From NCBI RefSeq assembly GCF_016907675.1, contig NZ_JAFBCJ010000001.1:4154001-4218000 (forward strand): a DNA stretch of 64,000 bases, written 5' to 3'. The notes under the pieces were generated by a model, which was not told the origin of the DNA, searched no databases, and was given only the letters and a program-made list of their open reading frames with translations. A program made the position numbers and the translations under genes. Positions 805 to 20,896 of this stretch are shown here, one piece after another; positions within the stretch are counted from its first letter, which is position 1, and every line of letters begins with the position of its first letter. The stretch is from Geodermatophilus bullaregiensis. Its GTDB lineage: Bacteria; Actinomycetota; Actinomycetes; Mycobacteriales; Geodermatophilaceae.

Positions 805-1767
805 GTGCGCCTGACCTCCCGCCGCGACGACGACGCCGACGTCATCCGGGCCCGCCTGCGGGTCCTGCTCGACGAGGGCCGCCGGTCCGCCGGCTGGCTG
901 CCCACCGACGACGAGCCCGAGGAGCTGCCCAGGACGGGCGTCGCGCTCCTCCGCCGCCCGGTCGCCGGGATCCCGGACCGGGTCGACGACCCGGGCGACG
1001 ACCGCCACGACCACGGCGACGTCGACGTCGACGAGCCGCGCGACGAGGACCCGCGCGACCGGCTCCCGCACGGCCTGGGTCGCCACCGGGCACCGGAGCG
1101 GACGGTGCGGGTCGACCCGGGGCGCCGGGGGAGCTGGGCGCTGTGGGCGGCCGGCCTGGTCACCGCGCTGGCCGTCGCCGGCTGGACCTGGCTCGACCGG
1201 CCGACCGTGCAGCCGGCGCCGCCGCCCGCGGACACCGCGGCCGAGGCCACGACCGGCGGCGCAGCCACGACGGACGGTGCGGTGCCCACGGACGGCGCAC
1301 CCGCGGCGTCCCCGGCGGTGGGTGAGGTGTCCGGGGCCCGGGCCGGCGTGGTGGTCTCGGTGGTCGGGCTGGTGGTGACCCCCGGCCTGGTGACCCTGCC
1401 CGAGGGCGCCCGCGTGGCCGACGCCGTGGCCGCGGCCGGCGGCCTGCTCCCGGAGGCCGACCCCGCGTCGGTCAACCTCGCCGCGGTCGTCACCGACGGA
1501 CAGCAGGTCGCCGTCGGGGTGCCGGGTGCGGTGGCCGCACCGGTGTCCGGGACGAGTGGAGGAGGCGCCCCGGGCGGGCCGGTCGACCTCAACGCGGCGA
1601 CCGTCGCCGACCTCGACGCCCTGCCCGGCATCGGCCCGGTGCTCGCCCAGCGGATCGTCGACCACCGCACGGAGCACGGCCGGTTCACCAGCGTCGAGCA
1701 GCTCGACGACGTCCCCGGCATCGGGCCGGCCATCTACGCCGAGCTCGCCGACCTGGTCCGGGTGTGA
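805..1767 (+). CDS. comEA: ComEA-like DNA-binding protein
   Basis: Competence-type protein that binds double-stranded DNA outside the membrane and passes it to the ComEC channel. In order: a charged cytoplasmic stretch (about 1-105), one membrane helix (about 109-130), an Ala/Thr/Pro-rich linker, an SLBB domain (about 178-240) and a C-terminal double helix-hairpin-helix (about 259-320) with two GIGP turns (PGIGPVLAQRI and PGIGPAIYAEL). An in-frame GTG also exists at 763, but the -10-like TAGCGT seven bases before GTG 805 favours a leaderless start there. The stop overlaps the comEC start by four bases (GTGA), so the pair is translationally coupled. Natural transformation is not shown for this organism. 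Confidence 0.88.
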   Translation: MRLTSRRDDDADVIRARLRVLLDEGRRSAGWLPTDDEPEELPRTGVALLRRPVAGIPDRVDDPGDDRHDHGDVDVDEPRDEDPRDRLPHGLGRHRAPERTVRVDPGRRGSWALWAAGLVTALAVAGWTWLDRPTVQPAPPPADTAAEATTGGAATTDGAVPTDGAPAASPAVGEVSGARAGVVVSVVGLVVTPGLVTLPEGARVADAVAAAGGLLPEADPASVNLAAVVTDGQQVAVGVPGAVAAPVSGTSGGGAPGGPVDLNAATVADLDALPGIGPVLAQRIVDHRTEHGRFTSVEQLDDVPGIGPAIYAELADLVRV

Positions 1768-11857: not shown

Positions 11858-12166
11858 TCAGCCCTGGCCGTGCACCTCGTAGTGGCTCACGGTGACCTCG
11901 CGGTCGACCAGGTACCGGTCGTCCTCGGGGTAGAAGACCGCGCGGGAGACGTCCTCGCCGGCGAACCCGGAGACCGCGTCGCGCGACTCCCAGAAGCTGA
12001 GCGTCACGATCTCGGTGCGGCCGTCGCCGAGATCGCGGGTCAGCATGTGCGCGCCCCGGTTGCCGGGCGTCCGCCGGTACTCCGCCATGCCGGTGGCCTC
12101 GATGTACTCGGCGTAGGCGTCGCGGTCCTCGGTGCGGACCCAGCCGCGCCACATCCGTGCGATCAC
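11858..12166 (-). CDS. ABM-domain protein
   Basis: 102 residues of the antibiotic-biosynthesis-monooxygenase-like ferredoxin fold: an N-terminal strand VIARMWRGWV, a helix with DAYAEYIEATGMAEYRRTPGN, then RTEIVTLSFWESRDAVSGFAG. Small ABM proteins act as cofactor-free oxygenases or simply as dimeric binding folds; no specific function can be read. GTG 12166 is preferred over GTG 12175 because GGAGG lies 8 bases before it. It follows the MDR gene by 18 bp, so they are probably co-transcribed. Confidence 0.7.
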   Translation of the reverse strand: MIARMWRGWVRTEDRDAYAEYIEATGMAEYRRTPGNRGAHMLTRDLGDGRTEIVTLSFWESRDAVSGFAGEDVSRAVFYPEDDRYLVDREVTVSHYEVHGQG

Positions 12167-12184
12167 GGCGCTCACCTCCGCGGG

Positions 12185-13150
12185 TCAGAGGGTGAAGACG
12201 ATCTTCCCGGCGGTGCGGCCCTCGAGCATCCGCGCGAAGCCGTCGCGCGCCTGCTCCAGGGGCAGCTCGACGTCGACGACCGGGCGGACGCCGGTGGCCG
12301 CGCACATCCGCATGAGCGCCTCGAGCTCGTCGCGGGTGCCCATCGTCGAGCCGATGACCGACAGCTGGGTGAAGAAGACCCGGTTCAGCTCGGCGCCGGG
12401 GTTGAAGCCGGTGGTCGCGCCGGAGGTGACGATGACACCCCCGGGCTTGAGCGACTTGACGCTGTGGCTCCAGGTCGCCTCGCCGACGGTCTCCATGACG
12501 CCGTCGACCCGCTCGGGCAGCCGGGCGCCGGTCTCGAACGCCTGCTCGGCGCCGAGGTCGAGCGCCGCCCGGCGCTTCTCCTCGCTGCGGCCGGTGACCC
12601 ACACGCGGAAGCCGGCCGCCTTGCCCAGCACGGTCAGCGCGGTGGCGACGCCGCCGCTGGCGCCCTGCACCAGCACGGTGTGGCCGGGCCGCAACCCGGA
12701 CTTCACGAACAGCATCCGGTAGGCGGTCAGCCACGCGGTCGGCAGGCACGCGGCCTCGGCGAGGGACAGCTCGGCCGGCTTGGGCAGCACGTTGCGCCGG
12801 GGGACGGCGACCCGCTCGGCCATCGTGCCCTGGTGCAGCTCGGAGAAGAGCGTGCGCCTGGGATCGAGCGTCTCGTCGCCGGTCCACTCGGGGGTCGCGA
12901 CGACGCCGTGCACGACCACCTCGTTGCCGTGCTCGTCGAGCCCGGCCGCGTCGGTGCCCAGGATCATCGGCATGCGCTCCTGCGGCAGGCCGATGCCGCG
13001 CAGGCTGAACAGGTCGTGGTGGTTGAGCGAGACGGCCTTGACCTGCACCGTCGTCCAGCCGTCGGGCACCTCCGGCTCGGGGCGGTCCCCGACCTCCAGG
13101 ACGGAGAGCGGGTCGTCGGGCGAGGGCGAGGACACGAAGACGGCGCGCAT
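12185..13150 (-). CDS. MDR-family zinc-independent NAD(P)H oxidoreductase
   Basis: 321 residues with the quinone-oxidoreductase type medium-chain reductase architecture: an N-terminal GroES-like domain (SLNHHDLFSLRG, LGTDAAGLD) and a Rossmann domain with VLVQGASGGVATALTVLGKA (about 150-170). The structural-zinc cysteine cluster and catalytic zinc ligands are absent, as in QOR-like enzymes. A leaderless promoter is predicted: TAACGT lies 7 bases before the ATG. Substrate unknown; probably reduces quinones or activated alkenes. Confidence 0.86.
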   Translation of the reverse strand: MRAVFVSSPSPDDPLSVLEVGDRPEPEVPDGWTTVQVKAVSLNHHDLFSLRGIGLPQERMPMILGTDAAGLDEHGNEVVVHGVVATPEWTGDETLDPRRTLFSELHQGTMAERVAVPRRNVLPKPAELSLAEAACLPTAWLTAYRMLFVKSGLRPGHTVLVQGASGGVATALTVLGKAAGFRVWVTGRSEEKRRAALDLGAEQAFETGARLPERVDGVMETVGEATWSHSVKSLKPGGVIVTSGATTGFNPGAELNRVFFTQLSVIGSTMGTRDELEALMRMCAATGVRPVVDVELPLEQARDGFARMLEGRTAGKIVFTL

Positions 13151-13157
13151 GCGCCGG

Positions 13158-13163
13158 ACGTTA
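13158..13163 (-). promoter_or_regulatory. -10 box of the MDR gene, leaderless
   Basis: TAACGT on the minus strand, 7 bases before the ATG at 13150, and no Shine-Dalgarno sequence in between. Confidence 0.45.
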
Positions 13164-13170
13164 GGACACC

Positions 13171-13206
13171 GCCGTCCGGCGGGCGACAGCGCGCCCGCCG
13201 GACGGC
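13171..13206. terminator. hairpin after the secreted-protein gene
   Basis: Perfect 15-bp inverted repeat, 13171-13185 with 13192-13206, 6-base loop. It begins 5 bases past the stop of the minus-strand gene ending at 13212. Confidence 0.72.
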
Positions 13207-13211
13207 CGGCT

Positions 13212-13805
13212 TCAGGCCCCTGCGTCCTGCACCCAGCCCGGCGGGCAGACGTTGTGGTCGTGGGACAGGCCGCCCCCGTTGAGCAGGTCGAGGTCGGACT
13301 GGGGGCCGTCGGACAGCGAGACGCCGCCGGAGACGGTCGCCTGCCGGGTGAGGTAGCGGCCGACGGTGCAGTCGTAGAGGGGCTCCCGCTGCGACCTGCC
13401 CACCCCGGTCCAGGTCACGTCGACCGTCGCCGTCCCGCTCTCGACGCGCGGTGCCAGGCCCTGCGGGGCGTCCCGTTCGGTGCAGGTGTAGTCGTACGAC
13501 GCGACCACGCGCGCCGACTCCAGCTGCTCGACCTCCGCCACGGTCGCGTCCTCGCCGTCCACCGTGCAGGACCAGGCCGGGCCGAACAGTCCGAGCCGGA
13601 GGGACGTCCCCGAGCCCCTGACCTCCTCGACGGTCACCTCGGCGAACAGCTCCTCGCCGGTGTCGCTGAACACCGCCCACGCCCGGGAGGCCGTGTAGGG
13701 CCCGACTCCCTCGGGTGGTGCCGCGGCCGCGGCGCCCGCCGTCGCGCCCAGGGCCGCCGTGGCCAGCAGCACGGTCAGTGCCCGCCCGGCCGTCCTCGTC
13801 CTCAT
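13212..13805 (-). CDS. secreted protein of unknown function
   Basis: 197 residues with a clear Sec signal peptide: a twin-Arg-containing basic start, a hydrophobic Ala/Leu core, and an AAAAAPP cleavage region near residue 29. The mature protein holds five cysteines (WSCTV, DYTCTE, YDCTV, HNVCPPG region), which suggests disulfides outside the cell, and the C-terminus has GGGLSHDHNVCPPGWV. No family recognised. ATG 13805 was chosen because GAGGAGG precedes it; the frame is open upstream but lacks signal-like sequence there. Confidence 0.72.
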   Translation of the reverse strand: MRTRTAGRALTVLLATAALGATAGAAAAAPPEGVGPYTASRAWAVFSDTGEELFAEVTVEEVRGSGTSLRLGLFGPAWSCTVDGEDATVAEVEQLESARVVASYDYTCTERDAPQGLAPRVESGTATVDVTWTGVGRSQREPLYDCTVGRYLTRQATVSGGVSLSDGPQSDLDLLNGGGLSHDHNVCPPGWVQDAGA

Positions 13806-13947
13806 GCCGTCCTCCTCACGAGCCGGTGCCCGGGACGTCCGGGTCCGGTGAGCGGGAGGGTGACAGCCGCCGGCGCGGCGCCGGAAGCGGTTCTCACGCA
13901 CCCCCGGCCGGGGAGGACGGCGCGTCGGCCGCGACGCGCCGGGACGG

Positions 13948-14955
13948 TCAGCGGACGACGACGACGGCGTCCCGGCGCGGCACGAACTCGCCGATCACGG
14001 GCGTGCCGGGGACCTCACCGGCCAGCAGCAGCCCACCCGACGTCTGGGCGTCGGCCAGCAGCAGCGCCTCGTCCTCCGACACCGCCGACAGGTCGGTGTG
14101 CGGGCGCACCCAGTCGAGGTTGCGGCGTGTGCCGCCGGAGACGAACCCGTCGGCCAGCGCCTGCCGCGCCCCGGTCAGGTAGGGGACGGCGGCGGCGTCG
14201 ACCACCGCGGTGACCCCGCTGGCCCGCGCCATCTTGTAGAGGTGGCCGAGCAGCCCGAAGCCGGTGACGTCGGTGCCGGCGCGGATGCCCGCGGCGACCG
14301 CGGCCCGGCCGGCGTCCCGGTTGAGCGCGGTCATCGAGGCCACCGCCTCCTCGCTGACCTCGCCGGTCGCCTTCATGCGGCTGTTGAGGACCCCGACGCC
14401 GAGCGGCTTGGTCAGCGACAGCGGCGTCCCGGCGGCGGCGGCGTCGTTGCGGATGACCCGGTCGACGTCCACCAGGCCGGTCACCGCCATGCCGTACTTG
14501 GGCTCGGGGTCGTCGATCGAGTGCCCGCCGCCGACGTGGCAGCCGGCCTCCTGCGCCACCTCGAGCCCGCCGCGCAGCACCTCGGCGGCGAGCTCGGCGG
14601 GCAGCACGTCCCGCGGCCAGCCGAGCAGGTTGACCGCGACCACCGGGGTGCCGCCCATGGCGTAGACGTCGGACAGCGCGTTGGCCGCGGCGATCCGGCC
14701 GAAGGTGTACGCGTCGTCGACGACCGGGGTGAAGAAGTCGGTGGTCAGCACCAGGCCCTGCCCGCCGGGGATGCGGACGACGGCCGCGTCGTCGCCGTCG
14801 TCGAGCCCGACGACCAGCTCGGCGGCGGGGTCGGCCGGGCCGGTGCGGGTGAGCCCGGCGACGACGGCCTCGAGCTCGCCGGGCGGGATCTTGCAGGCGC
14901 AGCCGCCGCCGTGCGCGTACTGGGTGAGCCGGATCGTCGCGGGCGCGCTGGTCAC
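13948..14955 (-). CDS. selD: selenide, water dikinase (selenophosphate synthase)
   Basis: Makes selenophosphate, the selenium donor for Sec-tRNA synthesis, from selenide and ATP. 335 residues; an AIRS-like kinase fold with the glycine-rich N-terminal loop HGGGCACKIPPGEL carrying the active-site Cys and Lys, and Asp-rich metal sites (VGLDDGDDAAV, TTDFFTPVVDD). The position that is selenocysteine in some SelDs is an ordinary Cys here (TGC), so SelD does not depend on its own product. A leaderless promoter is predicted (TACGGT, 6 bases before GTG 14955). It is divergent from selC-selA-selB. Confidence 0.96.
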   Translation of the reverse strand: MTSAPATIRLTQYAHGGGCACKIPPGELEAVVAGLTRTGPADPAAELVVGLDDGDDAAVVRIPGGQGLVLTTDFFTPVVDDAYTFGRIAAANALSDVYAMGGTPVVAVNLLGWPRDVLPAELAAEVLRGGLEVAQEAGCHVGGGHSIDDPEPKYGMAVTGLVDVDRVIRNDAAAAGTPLSLTKPLGVGVLNSRMKATGEVSEEAVASMTALNRDAGRAAVAAGIRAGTDVTGFGLLGHLYKMARASGVTAVVDAAAVPYLTGARQALADGFVSGGTRRNLDWVRPHTDLSAVSEDEALLLADAQTSGGLLLAGEVPGTPVIGEFVPRRDAVVVVR

Positions 14956-14961
14956 CGCTCC

Positions 14962-14989
14962 ACCGTAGGCTGGCCGGCGGAGGCGTCAG
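14962..14989 (-). promoter_or_regulatory. selD promoter overlapping the 5' end of selC
   Basis: Minus strand: -35-like CTGACG (14989-14984), 16 bases, -10 TACGGT (14967-14962), then 6 bases to the GTG. The -35 box lies inside the selC gene on the other strand, so polymerases on selD and selC could interfere. Confidence 0.5.
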
Positions 14990-15074
14990 GGTGCCTGGTG
15001 GCCCCCGCGGCCTCTAAAGCCGACGTGGCCGAGCAGCTCGGTCAGGCGGGTTCGATTCCCGTCCGCCTCCGCCA
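14979..15074 (+). tRNA. selC: tRNA-Sec with CUA anticodon
   Basis: A 96-base tRNA with encoded CCA. Acceptor GGAGGCG (14979-14985) pairs with CGCCTCC (15064-15070); discriminator G; CCA 15072-15074. T arm GCGGG-TTCGATT-CCCGT (15046-15062), extendable by one pair, giving a 13-bp acceptor/T helix typical of bacterial tRNA-Sec. Long variable arm GGCCGAG-CAG-CTCGGTC. The anticodon loop CTCTAAA (15012-15018) is closed by CGGC/GCCG (15008-15011, 15019-15022), putting CTA at 15014-15016 where the standard gene has TCA. The tRNA should therefore read UAG. It lies between selD and selA. UAG-reading tRNA-Sec has been reported from Geodermatophilus and Blastococcus. The D stem has one apparent mismatch. 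Confidence 0.95.
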
Positions 15075-15111: not shown

Positions 15112-16422
15112 ATGAGCGCCGACCTGCGGCGGGCAGTGCCCCGTACCGACACGCTGCTGGCCGACCCCGCGCTGGCCGCGGCCTCCGCCCGGCTGGGGCG
15201 CGAGCTGGTCAAGGACGTCGTCCGCGGCGTCCAGCAGCGGGTGCGCGACGGCTCGCTCGGCCCGGACGACGCCGTCGCCGCCGTCCTCGCCGGCCTCCCG
15301 GGTACCGCGGGCAGCCTGCGGCCGGTGCTCAACGCCACCGGGGTCCTGGTGCACACCAACCTAGGGCGGGCGCCGCTGTCGGCGGCCGCGGTCGAGGCCG
15401 TGGTCGCCGCCAGCGGCACCACCGACGTCGAGCTCGACCTGGGCAGCGGCCGGCGCGGGCCCCGGGGGGAGGCGGCCCTGGCGGCCCTGCTCGCGGCCGT
15501 CCCGGCGGCCGGGGCCGCGATCGTGGTGAACAACTGCGCCGCGGCCCTCGCGCTGGTGGCGACGGCGCTCGGCGGGGAGCTGGTCATCGCCCGCGGCGAG
15601 CTGGTCGAGATCGGCGACGGCTTCCGCATCCCCGAGCTGCTGGAGTCCACCGGCGCCCGGCTGCGCGAGGTCGGCACCACCAACCGCGTGGCGCTCGAGG
15701 ACTACACGCGCGCGCTCGGCCCGGGCACCGGCGCGGTGCTCAAGGTGCACCCGTCGAACTTCGTCGTGCGCGGCTTCACCCGGTCGGTACCGGTCGCCGA
15801 CCTGGCCGCGGGGCTGGCCGGCACCGGCGTCCCGCTGGTCGCCGACGTCGGCTCGGGCCTGCTGCGCCCGCACCCCGTCCTGCCCGGGGAGCCCGACCTG
15901 CAGACCACGCTGGCCGACGGCGCCGACCTGGTGCTGGCCAGCGGCGACAAGCTGCTCGGCGGCCCGCAGGCCGGGCTGGTGCTGGGGCGGGCCGAGCTGG
16001 TGCAGCGGCTGCGCCGGCACCCGCTGTACCGGGCGCTACGGGTGGACAAGACGACGCTGGCCGCGCTGGAGGCCACGCTGCGCGGCCCGCTGCCGCCGGT
16101 GCAGGAGATGCTCGCCGCCGGCGTCGCCGGGCTGCGCCGCCGCGCCGAGGCGCTGGCCGCCCGGCTGGCGTCGGCCGGCGTCGACGCCCGGGCCGTGGAC
16201 TCGGCCGCCCGCGTGGGCGGGGGAGGGGCGCCCGAGCACCCGCTGCCCAGCGCCGCGGTGTCGCTGCCGGGCTCCTTCGCGGAGCCGCTGCGCCGGGGGG
16301 CCTGCCCGGTGGTCGGGCACGTCGAGGACGACCGGACGCTGCTCGACCTGCGCAGCGTGCCGCCGTCGGCCGACGGCGACCTGGCCGCCGCGGTGCTGGC
16401 CGTCGCCGGGCGGGGAGCCTGA
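15112..16422 (+). CDS. selA: L-seryl-tRNA(Sec) selenium transferase
   Basis: PLP enzyme that converts Ser-tRNA(Sec) to Sec-tRNA(Sec) with selenophosphate. 436 residues, slightly shorter than Escherichia coli SelA. Features: N-terminal tRNA-binding helices, LNATGVLVHTNLGRAPLSAA, IVVNNCAAALAL, and the PLP lysine in SGDKLLGGPQAGL (about Lys280). ATG 15112 fits the family N-terminus; the frame is open far upstream through selC and antisense selD, but that part is not coding. It ends 5 bases before selB, forming an operon. Confidence 0.97.
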   Translation: MSADLRRAVPRTDTLLADPALAAASARLGRELVKDVVRGVQQRVRDGSLGPDDAVAAVLAGLPGTAGSLRPVLNATGVLVHTNLGRAPLSAAAVEAVVAASGTTDVELDLGSGRRGPRGEAALAALLAAVPAAGAAIVVNNCAAALALVATALGGELVIARGELVEIGDGFRIPELLESTGARLREVGTTNRVALEDYTRALGPGTGAVLKVHPSNFVVRGFTRSVPVADLAAGLAGTGVPLVADVGSGLLRPHPVLPGEPDLQTTLADGADLVLASGDKLLGGPQAGLVLGRAELVQRLRRHPLYRALRVDKTTLAALEATLRGPLPPVQEMLAAGVAGLRRRAEALAARLASAGVDARAVDSAARVGGGGAPEHPLPSAAVSLPGSFAEPLRRGACPVVGHVEDDRTLLDLRSVPPSADGDLAAAVLAVAGRGA

Positions 16423-18866: not shown

Positions 18867-19637
18867 CTACTCCGCCGCGGGCACCCAGCGGGCCGGCCGC
18901 TTCTCCCGGAACGCGGCGATGCCCTCCTGGCCCTCCTCGCCGGCGAAGGCCCGGGCCGAGAGGTCGAGCAGGTCGTCGAAGGAGCCCCGCAGGCCGCCGG
19001 CGCGCAGCAGCCGCTTGGTCTCGGCCAGCGCCCACGGCGAGCCCGCCGCCAGCGCCCGCACCTGGCCCTCGACGGCGGCGTCGACCTCCTCGTCGGGCGC
19101 GGTCAGGTCCACCAGCCCCCCGGCGGCCGCCGCGGCGGCGTCGAACACCTCGCCGGTGAGCATCAGCCGGTGCGCCACGTGCGGCAGCACCCGCGGCAGC
19201 ACGACGGCGGAGATGACCGCCGGCACGATGCCCAGCCGCACCTCGGAGAAGGCGAACGTCGCCGACGCCCCGGCCACCACGACGTCGCACGCGGCCAGCA
19301 GCCCGACCCCACCGGCGCGGGCGGGACCGCGGACGGTGGCCACCACCGGCTTGGGTGCGGTCCAGATGCGCTCGAGCAGCTCGGGCAGCTCGCGCACGCC
19401 CTGGTCGCCCGCGCCGGCACCCACGGCCTCGGACAGGTCCATCCCCGAGCAGAAGACCCGGCCGGTGTGGTCGAGCACCACCACCCGCACGGCGTCGTCG
19501 GCCAGCGCGGCGTCCAGCGCCTCCCGCAGCCGGGCGCGCACCGCGCGGGACAGCGCGTTGCGGTTGGCGGGGGAGTCGAGCGTGAGGGTCGCGACCCCGC
19601 GCTCGACCGAGACCTGCAGCACCTCGTCGTCGGCCAC
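18867..19637 (-). CDS. enoyl-CoA hydratase/isomerase family protein
   Basis: Crotonase-fold enzyme acting on acyl-CoA thioesters. 256 residues from GTG 19637, which has AGGA nine bases upstream; GTG 19664 would add nine residues not typical of the family. Contains NRNALSRAVR, the oxyanion-hole loop HTGRVFCSGMDL, RGPARAGGVGLLAACDVVVA and the FSEVRLGIVPAVISAVVLPR segment. The second catalytic Glu position looks occupied by Val/Ile, so isomerase or hydratase activity cannot be assigned. It ends with TAG, of interest because the window encodes a UAG-reading tRNA-Sec. Divergent from hemW. Confidence 0.85.
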   Translation of the reverse strand: MADDEVLQVSVERGVATLTLDSPANRNALSRAVRARLREALDAALADDAVRVVVLDHTGRVFCSGMDLSEAVGAGAGDQGVRELPELLERIWTAPKPVVATVRGPARAGGVGLLAACDVVVAGASATFAFSEVRLGIVPAVISAVVLPRVLPHVAHRLMLTGEVFDAAAAAAGGLVDLTAPDEEVDAAVEGQVRALAAGSPWALAETKRLLRAGGLRGSFDDLLDLSARAFAGEEGQEGIAAFREKRPARWVPAAE

Positions 19638-19675
19638 GACCGGACATCCTGCCGCGCGCGGCACACTGGGGTCAG

Positions 19676-20896
19676 ATGAACACCGTCCTGCCGCTGCTCG
19701 ACGCCCCGCCGGCGACCCTGCAGCTCCCCGAGAGCGCCCGCGAGGGGCTGGCCCGGACGCCCTTCGGGCTGTACGTGCACGTGCCCTTCTGCGCGACCCG
19801 CTGCGGCTACTGCGACTTCAACACCTACACCTCCGACGAGCTCGGCCCCGGCGCCAACCGCGCCGAGTACGCCGGGACGGCGATCGCCGAGCTCCGGCAG
19901 GCCGCCGACACCCTCGGCCCCGACCTGCCCACGGTCTCCACGGTCTTCGTCGGGGGCGGCACCCCGACGCTGCTGCCCGCCGAGGACCTCGCCGCCGTCC
20001 TCGCCGCGGTCCGCGAGCTGTTCCCCGTCGCGCCCGACGTCGAGGTGACCACCGAGGCCAACCCCGAGTCGGTGACGCCGGCCAGCCTGGCCACCCTGCG
20101 CGCGGCCGGCTTCACCCGGCTCAGCCTGGGCATGCAGTCGGCCGCCGAGCACGTGCTCGCCGTCCTCGACCGCCGGCACACCCCCGGTCGCGCCGCCGAG
20201 GCCGCGCGCGAGGCCCGCGCCGCCGGGTTCGAGCACGTGAACCTCGACCTGATCTACGGTACGCCGGGGGAGACCGACGCCGACTGGGCCGCCTCGCTCG
20301 ACGCCGTCCTGGCCGCGCCGGTCGACCACGTCAGCGCCTACGCGCTCATCGTCGAGGACGGCACCCGGCTGGCCCGGCGCATCGCCCGCGGCGAGCTGCC
20401 GGTGCCCGACGACGACGTCCTCGCCGACCGCTACGTGCAGGCCGACACCACGCTGCGCGGCGCCGGCTTCGACTGGTACGAGGTGAGCAACTGGTCGCGC
20501 GGCGACGCCGCCCGCTGCCGGCACAACGAGCTGTACTGGGCCAACGCGAACTGGTGGGGCGTCGGGCCCGGCGCGCACAGCCACGTCGGCGGCGTGCGCT
20601 GGTGGAACGTCAAGCACCCCGCCGCGTACGCCGGGCGGCTGGCCGCGGGGGAGGGCCCGGTGGCCGACCGCGAGGTGCTCGAGCCCGCCGACCGCGCGCT
20701 GGAGACGGTGATGCTCGGCCTGCGGCTGCGCGACGGCCTGCCGCTGACCGCGCTGTCCGGCGCCGGCCGGCTGCGTGCCGCCGACGCCGTCGCGCGCGGC
20801 CTGCTCGACCCGGACGCGCACGCGGGGGGCCGGGCGGTGCTCACCGACCGCGGCCGCCTGCTCGCCGACGCCGTCGTCCGCGACCTGACCGACTAG
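19676..20896 (+). CDS. hemW: HemW-like radical SAM protein (heme chaperone)
   Basis: 406 residues, formerly annotated as oxygen-independent coproporphyrinogen oxidase. The radical-SAM cluster motif is CATRCGYC (about residues 40-47), followed by GGGTPTLL and the HemW C-terminal domain with NWSRGDAARCRHNELYW and GPGAHSHV. HemW proteins have CxxxCxYC without the extra HemN N-terminal residues and bind heme for transfer to respiratory enzymes. It ends with TAG. Its neighbour upstream is the divergent enoyl-CoA hydratase, 38 bp away. Confidence 0.9.
   Translation: MNTVLPLLDAPPATLQLPESAREGLARTPFGLYVHVPFCATRCGYCDFNTYTSDELGPGANRAEYAGTAIAELRQAADTLGPDLPTVSTVFVGGGTPTLLPAEDLAAVLAAVRELFPVAPDVEVTTEANPESVTPASLATLRAAGFTRLSLGMQSAAEHVLAVLDRRHTPGRAAEAAREARAAGFEHVNLDLIYGTPGETDADWAASLDAVLAAPVDHVSAYALIVEDGTRLARRIARGELPVPDDDVLADRYVQADTTLRGAGFDWYEVSNWSRGDAARCRHNELYWANANWWGVGPGAHSHVGGVRWWNVKHPAAYAGRLAAGEGPVADREVLEPADRALETVMLGLRLRDGLPLTALSGAGRLRAADAVARGLLDPDAHAGGRAVLTDRGRLLADAVVRDLTD

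Follow-up and report, generated by a model that had tools for sequence, protein, structure and literature searches.

The locus analysed here raises the question of which codon directs the insertion of selenocysteine (Sec) in its host, a soil actinobacterium: the initial annotation had proposed UAG in place of UGA, on account of a tRNA-Sec gene (selC) with a CUA anticodon. The window, that is the whole 64-kb stretch of DNA analysed, almost certainly contains the selD-selC-selA-selB cassette of a Geodermatophilus-like actinobacterium whose tRNA-Sec reads UAG, inserting Sec at hairpin-marked UAG codons in at least a formate dehydrogenase (FDH) and a UGSC-family protein. A UAG-Sec system is already in print for the Geodermatophilaceae, and the observation is confirmed here with a well-supported interpretation; the additions are a bounded switch, a second target gene in this genome, UAG still stopping nearby genes, and repeated conversion of FDH. 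The wider interest lies in a codon of the 21st amino acid that has changed naturally in a family where both states occur, which allows the sequence of changes in tRNA, target genes and hairpin to be reconstructed.

Mukai and colleagues reportedly described UAG-directed Sec in Geodermatophilus and Blastococcus in 2016, and the genome studied here is said not to be among those they named. This precedent, named in the initial annotation, is borne out by the SecMarker paper, which describes three Geodermatophilaceae genomes with a CUA tRNA-Sec, cites Mukai 2016 for the FDH and UGSC selenoproteins, and adds an AhpC with TAG in B. saxobsidens DD2 (PMC5330540); a further source likewise states that some bacteria use UAG for Sec (PMC8124441). 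The present system shares with that of Mukai 2016 the family, the genus as judged by the nearest named loci (sel region 89–90% identical), the CUA tRNA-Sec and the TAG in FDH and UGSC. With the cases in the SecMarker paper it shares the CUA anticodon and the FDH and UGSC selenoproteins, but those cases include AhpC with TAG, whereas all six AhpC-TSA rows of this genome are free of stops. No published title on the limits of the CUA clade or on repeated FDH conversion was found in a search that left most subscription papers outside its scope. Nor did we see in print the contrast between a CUA-linked SelA with one origin and an FDH codon with four, which is weak evidence of novelty.

The features of the locus are collected in Table 1. 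The tRNA-Sec covariance model RF01852 aligns to selC over its full length (1–91 of 91) with 66.6 bits, well above its gathering score of 47, and an E of 2.3e-11 in the 64-kb window, and gives the sole Rfam match in the window. ARAGORN reported the identical span with anticodon cta at tRNA position 36, and mislabels the gene as tRNA-Pyl. Alignment to the RF01852 structure shows a long variable arm and a 6-bp D-stem in which one of the six pairs is non-standard, and a G directly precedes the CCA when the sequence is read. A published account gives the traits of tRNA-Sec as a long variable arm, a 6-bp D-stem with a 4-base loop and a G discriminator (PMC7609411). The gene has the long variable arm, the D-stem with its 4-base loop and the G discriminator of a bacterial tRNA-Sec, with CUA in place of the usual UCA anticodon, so the description of a true tRNA-Sec with a long variable arm, an encoded CCA and a CUA anticodon stands. 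The genome is one contig of 5,200,084 bases, in which the tRNA-Sec model picks up seven rows at E 0.001. Of these the selC locus alone lies above the cut-off; the six weaker rows are tRNA-Ser (three), Gly, Leu and Met. A second selC with TCA, named in the initial annotation as a finding that would speak against UAG, was not found in the whole genome by this search at E 0.001.

Table 1. Features of the sel locus and of two nearby genes ending in TAG; positions are those of the window.
Feature	Position	Strand	Basis or remark
selD, selenophosphate synthetase	13948..14955	-	AIRS domains (Pfam); TIGR00476 390.9 bits
selC, tRNA-Sec, anticodon CUA, CCA encoded	14979..15074	+	RF01852, ARAGORN, direct reading
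Anticodon loop CTCTAAA	15012..15018	+	Anticodon CTA = 15014–15016
selA, selenocysteine synthase	15112..16422	+	PF03841 320.3 bits; TIGR00474 406.2 bits
selB, Sec-specific elongation factor, C-terminal winged helix	16428..18173	+	GTP_EFTU, SelB-wing_3; TIGR00475 281.1 bits
Enoyl-CoA hydratase gene ending in TAG	18867..19664	-	PF00378 up to residue 260/265
Radical SAM gene with HemN_C, ending in TAG	19676..20896	+	PF04055, PF06969 (latter up to residue 396/406)

The flanking genes are those expected from the initial annotation: Pfam and NCBIfam matches place selD upstream on the opposite strand and selA-selB downstream. SelD itself is no selenoprotein, since its translation carries Cys in GGGCACK near the N-terminus. 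In best single alignments at the nucleotide level the sel region is 89.2% identical to that of Geodermatophilus telluris over 3,955 bases, 90.0% to that of G. dictyosporus over 3,329 bases and 89.7% to that of G. saharensis over 3,211 bases; by this identity, the nearest named relatives include these three species.

tRNA-Pyl is compact, with a short variable loop, and selC aligned to the tRNA-Sec model has a long variable arm instead. Both systems have a CUA anticodon reading UAG, but they differ in tRNA fold, and the present one is expected to depend on a hairpin and on SelB; no pyl genes occur among the window frames scanned with Pfam. That selC is in truth a tRNA-Pyl inserting pyrrolysine at UAG, as its anticodon and the ARAGORN label might suggest, is extremely improbable for a 96-nt gene with a long variable arm and a full-length tRNA-Sec model match, adjoined by selD, selA and selB, in a genome with TAG at the Sec sites of the known selenoprotein families FDH and UGSC.

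The pathway established for bacteria begins with SerRS, which loads Ser onto tRNA-Sec; SelA then converts this Ser to Sec using the selenophosphate of SelD. The CUA tRNA-Sec would be charged and converted in the same way, and SelB would carry the Sec-tRNA to ribosomes at a UAG that has a hairpin 18 nt on, its loop being GGUCU in FDH and AGUGU in UGSC on a 7-bp stem. Sec would then be inserted at least in the FDH-N-type formate dehydrogenase and the UGSC-family protein of this genome, and a UAG without such a hairpin should still stop translation. For this strain we infer charging, delivery and the actual Sec residue. Compared with the standard UGA/UCA system, selA, selB, selD and the tRNA-Sec fold are the same, as is the position of the stop codon 18 nt before an RGU loop in the relatives read; the differences are the UAG/CUA pair and the closing pair of the anticodon loop, which is C-G in selC and T-A in those UCA genera of the Geodermatophilaceae that were read.

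The initial annotation called for in-frame TAG codons at selenoprotein Sec sites followed by SECIS-like hairpins, and two such sites were found in the same genome. The first belongs to an FDH-N-type formate dehydrogenase outside the window, with its TAG at C1:2962527. The frame is open through one TAG, ...IENQARI[TAG]HSATVPGLGASFGRGG..., a context which we take to be the Sec site of FDH; the peptide around it is IENQARI-X-HSATVPGLGASFGR, X being the UAG position, and the match to the formate dehydrogenase family NF041513 of NCBIfam reaches 1923.7 bits. Five rows in the genome match PF00384, one with a stop (TAG) and four without any, and one of these four is another part of the same FDH frame. 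A molybdopterin oxidoreductase with TGA is absent among the five rows, so that selenoprotein genes with TGA at the Sec site, also listed beforehand as contrary evidence, did not appear there. The second site is that of a UGSC-family gene with TAG at C1:5112411 in the context IEALAD[TAG]GSCTSC (NF041046, 133.8 bits with one TAG). Both proteins will be truncated by any gene finder for which UAG is nothing but a stop codon.

The SECIS-like hairpin is recognised by covariation in FDH and by fold only in UGSC. In FDH the TAG is followed by 18 nt and the loop GGTCT on a 7-bp stem. In an alignment of 49 distinct TAG sequences, 99.1% of the stem cells are paired (0/500 shuffles as high), the covariation score is 0.287 against 0.118 in shuffled alignments (reached by 0/500 shuffles), and three pairs have changed on both sides (4/500 shuffles). 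Evidence for the same stem in the TGA relatives (n = 26) is mixed: 91.8% of cells are paired (15/500 shuffles as high) with the outermost pair open in 15 of the 26, and the covariation is reached by 1/500 shuffles, while 464/500 shuffles match the single pair with changes on both sides and 500/500 match the number of further pair types. The UGSC gene of this genome has, after its TAG, 18 nt and the loop AGTGT on a 7-bp stem.

Pattern scans for further Sec sites gave few candidates. The strict pattern TAG-N18-GGTCT has 10 matches in the genome (18 for the backwards control), of which only FDH is a Sec site; the others, all rejected, are three copies each of two sequences that we recognise as rRNA, one sequence that is presumably a tRNA, and two unsupported frames. 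This pattern missed UGSC because of its AGTGT loop, and the gene was found by the NF041046 family search and by the relaxed pattern TAG-N17-CRGTNTG, whose four matches (backwards control, seven) are FDH, UGSC and two places without a supported frame. The relaxed pattern misses 4 of the 14 TAG UGSC sites of the relatives and this genome (L350, L351, L352 and L354, with loops closed by G-C) and is therefore incomplete, so that two is a lower bound for the selenoproteins of the genome and more could have been missed. Its TGA version matches 36 times in four genomes, 10 of them in the genome of the window; 30 of the 36 loci (9 of the 10) were examined and none has five or more stem pairs, hence there is no UGA-type Sec site of such form among these 30. 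A search for AhpC-TSA in six genomes yielded a TAG row only in one of them (G009).

UAG is still an ordinary stop for two genes near selB (Table 1), where the next in-frame stop lies 7 codons past the terminal TAG in the enoyl-CoA hydratase gene and 23 codons past it in the radical SAM gene. Among 44 likely genes in the window, 42 end in TGA, two in TAG and none in TAA, as counted with a crude codon-position filter that missed real genes, selA among them. Taken with the known SelB mechanism, these TAG-ended genes suggest that recoding is local and hairpin-dependent, UAG probably meaning Sec only where a hairpin comes after. One further frame with a single TAG in the window, 12132–14213 (+), was considered as an FDH and rejected, since Pfam gives no match for it and it runs antisense to selD and to a gene resembling alcohol dehydrogenase.

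Across relatives, CUA is co-distributed with TAG and UCA with TGA. A tRNA-Sec was detected at E 1e-9 in 108 of 112 family genomes (110 rows), and the anticodons read in 71 of these 110 rows are 63 cta and 8 tca. Three further genera of the Geodermatophilaceae keep UCA, in draft genomes 74–98% complete, and the TCA copies come from seven genomes in genera g5, g6 and g7 and from G058, where the TCA gene is a second copy. All 29 tRNA-Sec loci read from the order are tca. In the anticodon arm, selC differs from the g7 tRNAs chiefly in having CTA for TCA and a loop-closing C-G for T-A. FDH rows in the family number 119 in 100 of the 112 genomes at E 1e-60, and 116 hold one TAG, the other three not reaching the Sec site. 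Outside the family, one TGA each is present in 65/65 FDH rows among the matches listed in the order search; one of them, in G209, has an extra TAG away from the Sec site. In the UCA family genomes G070, G072 and G074 the FDH is of a different type; it has TGA, and its loop and spacing are the same. The nearest comparison is therefore not orthologous to the TAG FDH, and TGA orthologues of the latter belong to other families of the order. That selC is decayed or mutated and the TAGs are nonsense mutations in dying genes, for which the ordinary use of TAG as a stop in this genome might be cited, is exceedingly unlikely: FDH rows with one TAG are present in all nine genera read with CUA, mostly as open frames of more than 1,000 codons, the pairing of the FDH hairpin is kept through double changes, and the TAG stands exactly at the Sec position in 59/59 TAG loci read.

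The limits of the CUA state were examined in a genome collection. A scan for CUA tRNA-Sec that required a non-G base after the loop returned no matches, and an open scan returned 91 stretches, with some genomes contributing two; the pattern of the latter fixes the D-loop and T-loop letters, and other CUA tRNA-Sec genes could be missed by it. ARAGORN called cta in 90 of the 91, and L194, at a contig end, was uncalled. L177, from an Erysipelotrichaceae MAG, was rejected as an ordinary tRNA, as were L114 and L115 from two viral contigs; L127 (named Bacillus) and L162 (a Frankiales MAG) were taken as the family genomes G030 and G060, not as out-of-family cases. L136, a 4.8-kb piece of a Jatrophihabitans MAG, encodes a SelD 89% identical to that of the window; it may be mis-binned and is doubtful as an out-of-family case. 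The remaining records presumably bear Geodermatophilaceae genus names, some being labelled so in the SelA tree. Among the 91 stretches, with L177 set aside and L136 doubtful, no CUA tRNA-Sec lies clearly outside the Geodermatophilaceae. The ordinary-type CTA tRNAs at L177:2779–2868, L114:6364–6457 and L115:1928–2017 are suppressor-like.

In two of the genomes an additional tRNA-Sec was noted. The second, intact tRNA-Sec of G058, a UCA gene scoring 81.8 bits, lies beside a transposase in L014 (G058:C17:1–2763) at 1169–1263 (-), in a transposase-rich stretch. The leading 20 kb of its 69-kb contig, which contain the gene, have 69.7% GC, and the remainder has 75–77%. SelA, SelB, SelD and FDH have no match on this contig, and its two TGA-pattern matches have three and one stem pairs; misassembly or contamination is possible. 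On one contig of Blastococcus endophyticus CPCC 205247, about 59 kb separate two sel loci with a CUA tRNA-Sec (L193 and L206). Both include selD, selA and selB, although the selB of L193 runs off the stretch examined.

Phylogenetic analysis of SelA (at least 200 residues; 12 of 13 CUA loci, 4 of 7 family UCA loci and 26 of 29 order loci) separates the 12 CUA rows from the rest by a branch with support 100/100 and the four UCA family rows by another with support 100/99; the tree does not settle whether the two groups are sisters. As the CUA-linked SelA proteins form one clade, the cassette probably switched from UCA/UGA to CUA/UAG once, within the family as drawn here.

The FDH genes tell a different story from that of the one SelA clade. 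The Sec site was obtained from 85 of 89 loci (L332 and L333 being of the other FDH type, L334 not being an FDH contig and L311 being read later), namely 59 with TAG and 26 with TGA, and all but L317, which is too short, entered an 84-row tree. This tree has four TGA/TAG changes, all forced by well-supported branches, and divides the 59 TAG rows into a main lineage of 51 and others of 5, 2 and 1 that branch within FDHs from other families. A careful 40-row tree, for which the Sec residue was masked (22 of the 26 TGA loci, without L308, L313, L317 and L331, and 18 of the 59 TAG loci) also has four changes; the 5–95% range over 200 bootstrap trees is four, none of the 200 trees has a single change, and a topology with all TAG rows as one clade is rejected (log-likelihood 552.5 lower, p-AU 4.99e-9). 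TGA to TAG is the likely direction, given that the order loci read have UCA and TGA. FDH genes thus appear to have changed from TGA to TAG at least four separate times, and with a single clade of CUA-cassette SelA this suggests that the extra FDH copies were converted separately.

The codon before the Sec site also distinguishes the two groups of FDH. It is ATA in 59/59 TAG loci read (e.g. L084:1693–1695), against ATT in 22 and ATA in 4 of the 26 TGA relatives. Ile codons elsewhere in the TAG FDH frames are ATA in 33 of 1,818 and ATT in four, the rest being ATC; in the TGA frames ATT accounts for 32 and ATA for 7 of 828, the rest again being ATC. A general need for ATA ahead of UAG was considered and rejected, since the codon before TAG is GAC or GAT in 14/14 UGSC genes and ATA is thus not required for UAG decoding as such; folding showed no role for the codon before TAG in FDH.

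A more novel reading, to which we give somewhat less than an even chance, is that recoding in the family was a recurrent capture of genes and not a single ancient event: one cassette switch would have been followed by the rewriting, each time with ATA, of at least three further FDH lineages of UGA ancestry, with G058-like genomes as bilingual intermediates. If this is true, a newly arrived UGA gene could function in bilingual genomes such as G058 for as long as its codon stayed unchanged. An alternative, which we consider rather unlikely, is that the four TAG lineages are products of short-tract gene conversion, a resident TAG FDH having overwritten ATTTGA with ATATAG in other copies. The uniform ATA before TAG fits such an event, as does L319, in which, by eye, ATATAG stands where its relative L306 has ATTTGA and the surrounding CGT and AGT codons are those of the relatives, and one recombination step would spare a two-step path via another codon; however, the tract at L319 would have to be short, and ATA could also have become fixed through selection on the FDH context. 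It is similarly doubtful that the extra FDH lineages were resident as TGA genes at the tRNA switch and were all converted then, instead of arriving later. The FDH trees do not date the conversions, and G230 and G173, from other parts of the order, each show two TGA FDH rows among the matches listed; against this stand the nesting of the minor TAG lineages (among the rows chosen for the tree) and their sporadic spread, which fits later transfer. Between copies acquired separately and then rewritten and several resident copies rewritten at the switch, this sporadic spread favours the former. The repeated rewriting of FDH copies from TGA to TAG makes codon reassignment testable with existing genomes and a reporter assay.

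Two minor observations concern the target genes of other family members. In G079, the FDH copies L207 and L208 have the segment with the Sec codon and hairpin absent, with a frame change at the joint and the same sequence to its right, which may reflect either an assembly drop-out or a true loss. In G087, the UGSC-family genes L338 and L349 have Cys (TGC) at the Sec site, and the same genome has a TAG copy, L353.
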